From NCBI GenBank assembly GCA_903833215.1, contig CAILEM010000035.1, positions 1 through 58,333 of the forward strand: 58,333 bases of DNA, written 5' to 3'. A program made the position numbers and the translations under genes. Positions 45,625 to 48,323 of this stretch are shown one piece after another; the stretch's first letter is position 1, and the number at the start of each line of letters is the position of its first letter. Source of the stretch: an uncultured Armatimonadota bacterium (GTDB taxonomy: Bacteria > Armatimonadota > Fimbriimonadia > Fimbriimonadales > Fimbriimonadaceae). The notes under the pieces are model-generated. The model was given only the letters and a program-made list of their open reading frames with translations. It had not been told where the DNA came from and searched no databases.

Positions 45625-46268
45625 TTCAAGCGACCGGTGCCTCGCTGGCTTATTCGGATCAGGGGCGTCAAGTTTTCGCATGCAAAGACATCGATATCGA
45701 TGTGCGCGAAAACGAGTTCTTGGGCATTCTCGGGCCGTCTGGGTCCGGTAAATCCTCGCTGCTCTACTTGCTAAGCGGCCTCAAGATTCCAACGAGTGGA
45801 CGAATCTTGTATAACGGAGCCGACCTAAGCTCGCTAAGCGACGACCAAAGAAGTCACCTTCGAATCACACAGTTCGGATTTGTGTTTCAACAGCCCTATC
45901 TGCTCGGCTATCTCACGGCCCTTGAGAATGTCTTGGTTTCGACGCCTCAAGACCAGGACCCTGATTCCGCGATTGAGATCCTAGAGAAGCTCGGCCTTGG
46001 GCATAAAACCCACCGTCACCCTCACGAACTCAGCGGAGGCGAGCGCCAGCGAGTTTGTGTTGCCAGGGCCCTTCGTGGCTCTCCACGCGTGATCTTCGCA
46101 GATGAACCCACCGCGGCCCTTGATCACTCGAACGGCGTCAGTGTTGTGACCCTCTTGAATCGACTCAGGGGTAACGGCTCTTTGGTGATGGTAACTCACG
46201 ACCCAAGCATGCTTGCCGAGGCGGATCGGATCGTCAAACTAGCAGACGGGACGCTCGATAACGGCTGA
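45621..46268 (+). CDS. LolD/MacB-type ABC ATPase
   Basis: 215 residues from ATG 45621. Walker A LGPSGSGKSSLLYLL, Q-loop FGFVFQQPYLLGYLTALEN, signature LSGGERQRVCVARAL, Walker B VIFADEPTAALD, H-loop MVTHDPSM. The FQQPYLLGYLTALENV pattern is that of LolD/MacB/FtsE ATPases. Overlaps the permease stop by 4 bases. Confidence 0.9.
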   Translation: MIQATGASLAYSDQGRQVFACKDIDIDVRENEFLGILGPSGSGKSSLLYLLSGLKIPTSGRILYNGADLSSLSDDQRSHLRITQFGFVFQQPYLLGYLTALENVLVSTPQDQDPDSAIEILEKLGLGHKTHRHPHELSGGERQRVCVARALRGSPRVIFADEPTAALDHSNGVSVVTLLNRLRGNGSLVMVTHDPSMLAEADRIVKLADGTLDNG

Positions 46269-46357
46269 TTCTTGGCCCTGTATCGCCAATGGATTGCGTC
46301 ACTAGTGAAAATACGTAAAAACGGTACGTTGTTGAGGCACAGCGAGGCCGTTTTGAA

Positions 46358-46386
46358 TTGACATTGGACTGTACGTCTGGTATTAT
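46358..46386 (+). promoter_or_regulatory. Strong sigma-70 promoter of the polyamine locus
   Basis: TTGACA at 46358-46363, a 17-base spacer and TATTAT at 46381-46386: a consensus -35, optimal spacing and a near-consensus -10. Transcription should begin around 46393. It drives a leader of about 255 bases before speD. No gene is seen in 46269-46357. Confidence 0.8.
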
Positions 46387-46392
46387 CCCCCC

Positions 46393-46650
46393 TGCGTCAC
46401 GGGCGACCGTGGTGCGGCTACGGCAGATGAATCTGCCTTAGGAGACAACCTCTTAGTTGTCGCGAAGACGATGTACAGGACAATTGAAACTGATGGATGC
46501 GGCCAAATCCGCCTGGGTAGGGCCCCTCTAACCGCGCAAGCGCTAGAGCTATCCGTCAGCAACAACTCCACCTCGCCACAGCTGATTCGTCGGGTTTCTC
46601 GCGCAAGAGCTATCTTGTGTCTGCGCACGTCAAACGTGAGGTCTATGTGA
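46393..46650 (+). ncRNA. Structured 5-prime leader of speD, class unknown
   Basis: Between the promoter and speD there is no convincing coding frame but many perfect hairpins: CACGG-GCGA-CCGTG (46398-46411, GNRA loop), GGCAGAT-GA-ATCTGCC (46422-46437), GACAAC-CTCTTA-GTTGTC (46444-46461), a CGT/GACG pairing that would close these into a junction, and a long hairpin 46515-46554 (GGGTAG/CTATCC, CTCT/AGAG, GCGC/GCGC). GCGCAAG...AGCTATC recurs at 46601. It resembles no riboswitch class I know. It could be a metabolite-sensing leader for polyamine synthesis or an independent small RNA. Confidence 0.55.
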
Positions 46651-47268
46651 TTGGCAAACCCTTATATCCTTGTTAGCACTCTAGTGTTCAGCGCCATCGC
46701 TGTCCCATCCCTGACCGAGACAAGACTCTCTTGGATCAAAAGGCTCTTCGGACGAAAAGCACCTGCAGCCATGGCTGCTGTTGCAGCTCCGACTATTGAA
46801 ACTGAAGCGGGTTGGACGCTTATTCCTGCCGATGATCCTGAATCATTCGGTGAATGGCTTGGTAAAGACGAAGAAGGTCTGCCTTTCCGACCAGACGAAA
46901 TCCCTTCATTGGGTTCCCATCTCTTGATTGAGATGTACGGCTGCAATGGTGCCACCCTTGAAACCGAAGAAATCGTAGGTAAGGCGATGAGCGATGCCGC
47001 CGCCGCCAGCAAGGCAACTATCGTCGAGCAGTCATTCCATGAGTTTAAGCCGTTCGGCGTAAGCGGTGCCGTGATCATTCAAGAATCGCACTATACGATT
47101 CATACATGGCCCGAGCACAGATATGCTGCTGTCGACCTGTTCTACTGTGGTGGAACGGTACTTGTCCACAAAGCCGTTGAGGTTCTCCGAGAGAGATTCC
47201 AGCCAGAGCGAATCAAGTTCCTTGTCGTTCGACGCGGACTTCAACACGATGTCGAAAGAACGAATTAG
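46651..47268 (+). CDS. speD: S-adenosylmethionine decarboxylase proenzyme, with N-terminal extension
   Basis: 205 residues from TTG 46651, which has GAGG 9 bases upstream; ATG 46771 has no such site. The C-terminal 125 residues are a bacterial SpeD: GSHLLIEMYGCNGATLE, then the self-cleavage site QESHYTIHTWPEHRYAAVDLFYCGG, where Ser becomes the pyruvoyl group. Family members are normally 115-140 residues; here about 85 residues precede the core, beginning with a hydrophobic stretch (ILVSTLVFSAIAV) and an RLFGRK segment. It makes decarboxylated SAM, the aminopropyl donor for the downstream SpeE. Confidence 0.88.
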   Translation: MANPYILVSTLVFSAIAVPSLTETRLSWIKRLFGRKAPAAMAAVAAPTIETEAGWTLIPADDPESFGEWLGKDEEGLPFRPDEIPSLGSHLLIEMYGCNGATLETEEIVGKAMSDAAAASKATIVEQSFHEFKPFGVSGAVIIQESHYTIHTWPEHRYAAVDLFYCGGTVLVHKAVEVLRERFQPERIKFLVVRRGLQHDVERTN

Positions 47269-47393: not shown

Positions 47394-48323
47394 ATGTCTA
47401 GTGACGCAACCGGAATGTTCATTGCCGAGACACACACCTCGGCCGCAATTTGGCACTACCGCGTCGAGAAGATGATTCTCGAAGGCAAAACCCAGTACCA
47501 AACCTATCAGATTTGCGACGTGCCGCGGTTCGGCAAGTCGTTGTTCTTGGATTACAACATCCAAACATCACTCATGGATGAGTACATCTTCCACGAGTGC
47601 ATGAGCCAGCCCGCCATGACGCTGCACCCAGACCCTAAGAAAGTGGTTGTTTGCGGTGGTGGCGAAGGCGCTACGCTACGGGAAGCCCTCAAGCACAACA
47701 CGGTCGAATCGGCGGTGATGGTCGATATTGACGAAGAACTCGTCGATATGGTCAAGGTCCACATGCCTGAGTGGCATCAGGGCGCGTTTGAAGACCCACG
47801 TACGACACTTCTGCACACCGATGCTCGTCAGTGGCTTGTCGATCACAAAGGAGCTGGATTTGACGTCGTATTGAGCGACCTTCCGAATCCTCATGAAGAT
47901 GGTCCGGGACAATTCCTATTCACACGCGAATATTTTGAGATCTGCGCCGAGGCGATGAGCGACGATGGCGTCTTCGCGATGCAGGCCGGTAGCGCCAACG
48001 AGAACTATCCCGAATGCATGATGTCGTGCATCAAGACTCTCGAAAGCATGAAGGACATCTTCCCATATGTATCGGGCTACTATGGACTCGTATCCACGTT
48101 CTTCCAGCCTTGGGGATTCGTCCTCGCAAGCAAGAAGTACGATCCTATGGCCCTCACCGAGGCAGAGATCGCGTCCCGATTCGCTCAGCGTGGTGTCAAG
48201 AATCGATACTACACGCCTCGCTACCACAACTCAGTTTTCACACTTCCTGAGTACCTATGGGAAGCGTACGATCGCAGCGCTCGTGTGCTGACTGATGCTG
48301 AGCCGTTCGTTTGGACGGCCTAA
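47394..48323 (+). CDS. speE: Polyamine aminopropyltransferase (spermidine synthase family)
   Basis: 309 residues from ATG 47394, with no purine-rich ribosome-binding site upstream; ATG 47415 is an alternative. Motifs: GKSLFLDYNIQTSLMDEYIFHECMS, VVVCGGGEGATLREALKH (SAM-binding loop), VMVDIDEELVDMVK, and the active-site DLPNPHEDGPGQFLFTREYF, where most spermidine synthases have DxxDP. The C-terminus contains RYYTPRYHNSVFTLPEYL. Transfers the aminopropyl group from decarboxylated SAM; the altered active-site loop leaves the acceptor amine open (putrescine, agmatine or a longer polyamine). Confidence 0.9.
   Translation: MSSDATGMFIAETHTSAAIWHYRVEKMILEGKTQYQTYQICDVPRFGKSLFLDYNIQTSLMDEYIFHECMSQPAMTLHPDPKKVVVCGGGEGATLREALKHNTVESAVMVDIDEELVDMVKVHMPEWHQGAFEDPRTTLLHTDARQWLVDHKGAGFDVVLSDLPNPHEDGPGQFLFTREYFEICAEAMSDDGVFAMQAGSANENYPECMMSCIKTLESMKDIFPYVSGYYGLVSTFFQPWGFVLASKKYDPMALTEAEIASRFAQRGVKNRYYTPRYHNSVFTLPEYLWEAYDRSARVLTDAEPFVWTA

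Follow-up and report, generated by a model that had tools for sequence, protein, structure and literature searches.

The leader upstream of speD in an uncultured bacterium of the Armatimonadota probably represents a new family within a known kind of element, the structured cis-regulatory leader RNA. It is confined to one bacterial family, in about 35 genomes of the Fimbriimonadaceae, and other genera have a different leader type. The stretch of DNA analyzed (the window) is 58,333 nt in length, and the nearest named relatives of its host are Fimbriimonas and other Fimbriimonadaceae. The leader is approximately 257 bases (46394–46650) and extends to the UUG start codon of speD at 46651. Compensatory base changes strongly support two of its hairpins. 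There is a slightly better than even chance that the RNA acts in cis on speD translation, by burial of the Shine-Dalgarno (SD) sequence in a helix that would close a four-way junction. The features are as follows.

46358–46386, plus strand: sigma-70-type promoter, TTGACA-17-TATTAT, with TG ahead of the second hexamer
46394–46411, plus strand: P1, 5' hairpin, core CACGG-GCGA-CCGTG with GNRA loop
46413–46417, plus strand: strand c (TGCGG), pairs with c' (46621–46625), predicted to close the four-way junction
46418–46441, plus strand: P2 hairpin, CTACGGCAG / CTGCCTTAG, strong covariation
46442–46450, plus strand: P3 5' strand, GAGACAACC, probable long-range helix
46451–46591, plus strand: variable insert inside P3, conserved in the closest genomes only
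46471–46650, plus strand: candidate leader ORF, 59 codons, ATG to TGA, peptide not conserved
46592–46600, plus strand: P3 3' strand, GGGTTTCTC, probable long-range partner of 46442–46450
46601–46620, plus strand: P4 hairpin, GCGCAAGA / TCTTGTGT, with conserved G-U pairs
46621–46643, plus strand: predicted P0 3' strand, consisting of c' (46621–46625), b' (46626–46631) and a' (46635–46643)
46647–46676, plus strand: mini-ORF, GTG...TAG, 9 codons, overlaps the speD start; conserved in start and stop codon but not in peptide
46651–47268, plus strand: speD (AdoMet decarboxylase), UUG start, N-terminal hydrophobic extension

The promoter has 11 of 12 consensus bases and is the single one found, with 0.2 expected in shuffled sequences, in agreement with the near-consensus promoter described in an earlier, sequence-only reading of this DNA. 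Its position places the expected transcription start near 46392. A TTGAC...GGTA motif precedes 29 leaders of the family. Eleven of these 29 promoters have a G-run in the -35/-10 spacer and a C-run past the -10 box (46364–46392 and the corresponding positions in relatives), and the window promoter has only the C-run; the runs are possibly an operator or may be due to chance. The product of the gene at 46651 is an S-adenosylmethionine decarboxylase (AdoMet_dc, E 1.9e-37), and speE is the next gene, at 47394. The leader thus does end at a gene of polyamine synthesis, as had been read from the sequence. Nearly all family members examined have the UUG start, and the N-terminus of SpeD (46651–46770) has a hydrophobic stretch of about 20 residues ahead of the conserved enzyme domain. 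No terminator was found on the plus strand between 46250 and 46800, which makes translation the likelier level of control.

A DNA search of 61 genomes located homologous leader pieces in 25, including the genome that carries the window, and all of these pieces are upstream of speD. Conservation is concentrated in two blocks: the first lies at the expected transcription start, the second ends at the SD and start codon of speD, and the middle is variable. Covariance models were built from the two end blocks (R1, and R2 for the 3' end) and each gives one match per genome. All 35 strong R1 matches (E <= 1e-13) are directly ahead of speD. Two weak R1 matches are likewise at speD (G092 and G093), and the remaining weak ones are probably chance. 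R2 matches are present in 37 genomes, all Fimbriimonadaceae and always at speD, with no match in the remainder of the 291 Armatimonadota genomes searched. The position is therefore consistent in the manner of a structured cis-regulatory RNA, always at speD and one copy per genome.

Rfam 15 shows no match at gathering score in the window. At loose thresholds, positions 46250–46800 give only an unrelated minus-strand match (E 6.9), and a scan of the relatives' loci shows nothing relevant. SAM-class families have no match in the window at E up to 10 and none in the relatives, short- or no-insert leaders included. The early impression that the leader belongs to no known riboswitch class is borne out at strict and loose thresholds, both in the window and at the relatives' loci. 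The literature searched contains no paper that connects Fimbriimonas with riboswitches or Armatimonadetes with structured RNAs.

The perfect hairpins initially noted, one with a GNRA loop, are present as P1 (loop GCGA), P2 and P4; in the window P1 extends to GCGTCACGG/CCGTGGTGC (46394–46416). Folding stability of the leader by itself is only modestly above chance (z -1.78); the argument is carried by conservation and covariation. In P2, 8 of 9 pairs have double-sided changes. P4 is paired in 97.2% of cells and has double-sided changes in 5 of 8 pairs, with 18 double-changed cells compared with 3.6 in shuffles (0 of 500 shuffles as high), and its pairing collapses when the partner is slid. Examples of compensatory change are AAGA/TCTT to CCAG/CTGG, CGATC/GATCG and CGACGCC/GGCGTCG. 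P2 and P4 are strongly supported as real helices by these changes; the sequence-only reading had named absence of covariation in relatives as evidence against itself, and both helices covary. A form of P4 with GCGC/GCGC and a GTGTCT bulge is weaker than the continuous GCGCAAGA/TCTTGTGT pairing, whose G-U positions change compatibly. The repeat GCGCAAG...AGCTATC that had been listed as a feature did not survive comparison: it consists of a conserved site (46601–46614) and a site in the variable insert (46534) that is absent even from the closest relatives.

P3 is a probable helix between GGAGA(N)AACC-type segments at 46442–46450 and GGGTTTCTC at 46592–46600. It is 87.8% paired, compared with at most 68.5% when the partner is slid, and the strands vary jointly, GAGAGATCC with GGTTTCTC, GGAAAGCC with GGGTTTTCC, and AAATC with GATTC. 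Native partners pair better than swapped ones (permutation p=0.0007, with related lineages treated as independent), and in 20 of 27 leaders the native site ranks in the top 2% of sites. A local GNRA hairpin of the type AGG..CCU has no double changes and fits less well than the long-range version. The candidate leader ORF begins inside the variable insert enclosed by P3; extra hairpins occur in this insert in close relatives only. The c/c' pairing (4 pairs by RNAalifold) is kept in 30 of 30 sequences and is nearly invariant; a C-G pair is changed to U-G in 12 sequences.

P2, P3, P4 and c/c' are predicted to form a four-way junction with arms P0, P2, P3 and P4 and essentially no unpaired bases between the arms. 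On the alignment with the variable insert cut out, the whole junction has 75 double-changed cells compared with 23.8 in shuffles and 15 double-changed pairs compared with 8.4, with 0 of 500 shuffles as high. RNAalifold recovered c, P2, P3 and P4 unprompted from this spliced alignment. In single-sequence folding a value above 0.5 is reached by P4 in 23 of 30 leaders, by c in 11, P3 in 12 and a in 8. The compensatory changes characteristic of structured cis-regulatory RNA are thus present in P4, P2 and the junction, together with coevolution in P3. The proposal that the hairpins are closed into a junction can be made more specific: the junction is a four-way one, with a closing helix that is able to extend as far as the SD.

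The closing helix involves the 5' end of the RNA. The P1 strands a (46394–46402) and b (46405–46411) can alternatively pair with the SD region, where the SD GAGG (46638–46641) lies within a', so that P0 would bury it. The SD neighborhood CGTGAGGTC (46635–46643) resembles the 3' strand of P1 (in many relatives it is CCGTGAGGC), and the 5' strand GCGTCACGG can therefore pair with either. The freed P1 3' strand can in turn base-pair to a CACGGT or CACGTC that lies shortly before the SD, and the 5'-end/SD and b/b' pairings nest into a single long helix. The 5' segment GGAGAGAACC is predicted to pair at long range, and not just to form a small hairpin.

Duplex predictions show the 5'-end/SD pairing in most lineages; among 40 leaders, more than half have no better partner for the 5' end than the SD window. 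The two regions coevolve, swapped partners being worse (p=0.0016, again with related lineages counted as independent). Strands a and a' are nearly invariant, so that the SD-burying pairs themselves show no direct covariation. In L111, L132 and L136/L137, P2, P3 and P4 are lost and the 5'-end/SD pairing is kept; L054, with an altered 5' strand (GCTTCGC), still pairs with both partners. Seven leaders that form a loss clade (L017, L019, L026, L112, L115, L122 and L127) keep the other helices and have no 5'-end/SD complementarity. Penalized folding gives a median gap between the two states of -0.8 kcal/mol outside the loss clade, the same as in the window, and the states are within 3.5 kcal/mol in 25 of 33 such leaders; in the loss clade P1 is favored by 3 to 7 kcal/mol.

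A model with two mutually exclusive states may be drawn from these pairings. In the open state the 5' end would be self-folded as P1 and the SD free. In the closed state P1 would be opened, a and b would pair with a' and b', P0 would zip through the SD, and speD would be untranslated. Pathway logic suggests that the closed state is favored when polyamine or decarboxylated SAM is plentiful, and the trigger could be a bound ligand or stabilization of the compact four-way junction by polyamines. Since the SD pairing is lost in seven genomes, and c and P3 fold in a minority of leaders, the switch is proposed as a hypothesis; it offers a specific predicted mechanism that is decidable by point mutations. 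The more specific reading is tentative and the less probable of the two, namely that the leader is a new riboswitch class in which polyamine, SAM or decarboxylated SAM is sensed through the compact junction and the mRNA 5' end serves as an anti-SD strand switchable between its local hairpin and the speD ribosome-binding site. Most conserved bases are in pairs, a less good fit to a classical ligand pocket, and protein binding or general polyamine stabilization of the junction thus stay in play. The pathway and the spermidine riboswitch make feedback by a polyamine or SAM derivative the obvious guess.

The SMK box (SAM-III) and other SD-sequestering riboswitches control translation by pairing the SD into a closing helix. 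The speD leader is predicted to share this pairing, but has no sequence or model match to them and differs in its two-domain form, with the mRNA 5' end as anti-SD and a competing 5' hairpin. The sole spermidine RNA class in the literature searched is a rare SAM-I variant of Gram-positive bacteria (PMC10853860). For this RNA spermidine has been shown to be the ligand (PMC10853860). The two are alike as cis-acting RNAs ahead of polyamine genes, with four stems and a closing helix (PMC10853860). The speD leader differs in several ways: Rfam's SAM-I model has no match in it even when thresholds are loose, one arm carries a long insert, no intrinsic terminator was found, and its hosts are Armatimonadota and not Gram-positive bacteria. 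Polyamine-sensing RNAs have so far been hard to prove. A separate speD-dedicated RNA family in a little-studied phylum would provide a second, independent test system for sensing of polyamines or SAM derivatives.

Translation of the leader itself could provide another form of control. Polyamine genes are known to have leader peptides, e.g., E. coli speFL and the uORFs of mammalian and plant AdoMetDC, and these are similar in that short ORFs are directly ahead of, or overlap, the gene start. Ribosomes on the 59-codon ORF would break P3, P4 and P0, stop at the TGA and restart at the speD UUG. The ATG (46471) is soon after P3, the TGA abuts the UUG, the ATG frame is open to within 20 nt of speD in 24 of 30 leaders compared with 15 of 30 for frame +2, and stops are mostly at 0, -11 or +26 from the speD start. 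However, stops are scarce in several frames of the region, ATGA depresses frame +1 and so leaves the frame contrast weak, and the ATG has no SD at the usual distance. The conserved peptide expected of a leader peptide is not found, frames through the 3' block differ between lineages, and codon-position bias is absent in four close genomes. The possibility that the 3' block encodes the last part of a leader peptide (VSRARAILCLRT) was rejected, the frame relative to speD differing between lineages. Unlike speFL and the AdoMetDC uORFs, the speD leader conserves RNA helices instead of a peptide, and coupling through the ORF is an unlikely explanation. The ORF spans most of the leader, and the original description of these roughly 255 bases as non-coding is uncertain.

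Less probable still is recognition of the leader by a regulatory protein (SpeD or a different one) that would bind at twin sites, the 5' hairpin and its look-alike near the SD. The single gene per genome, the resemblance of the SD region to the P1 3' strand and the conserved G-U pairs in P4 and c/c' would agree with such a site, but no candidate protein is at hand and the 3' look-alike forms no stable local hairpin in the folds inspected. A constitutive stable leader that protects the 5' end and has no regulatory role, to which the hairpin at the extreme 5' end and the modest folding z-score would conform, is the least probable, as a protective hairpin would need neither compensatory changes in helices distant from the 5' end nor long-range strands that coevolve. 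With the structured cis-acting leader as the preferred reading, the idea of a candidate new regulatory RNA stands in being regulatory-looking, without Rfam match and tied to speD; the insert with its possible leader ORF and the restriction to one family are additions to it.

The mini-ORF has the form [G/T]TG-ATT...TAG. Its start codon, four bases ahead of the speD UUG, is GUG or UUG, the first base never being A or C, and a UAG closes it after 8–11 codons; a stop within 12 codons is present in 51 of 57 loci, compared with 19% expected from synonymous codon choice. General selection on its peptide (MIGKHLHPC) was considered and rejected, base variation being lowest at speD second positions.

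Other speD leaders were also observed. A long, highly conserved leader, type B (TGCGCC...GGCGCC, CGTACGGCGGT, GAACGGCCTGCAGG), is present in other Fimbriimonadaceae genera (L103, L104, L119, L121, L139 and L141), about 430 to 60 bases ahead of the speD match, and has no Rfam match. The 5'-end/SD pairing is absent from type B leaders, and its extension to them is unsupported except in L147. The speD loci of WOR-3 and Hydrothermota (L157–L161, L163, L164 and L166) have a conserved ORF of about 20 codons directly upstream, e.g., MHDGDRCTRTCVGLLFVDNW-stop, which may represent a speD leader peptide. In HRbin15-like Fimbriimonadales (L150–L152, L154–L156 and L162) a near-invariant MxKVGxLGxRPARS stands at the beginning of the speD frame, and the DNA of this stretch can form a hairpin (CGACCTGCGCGGTCG).
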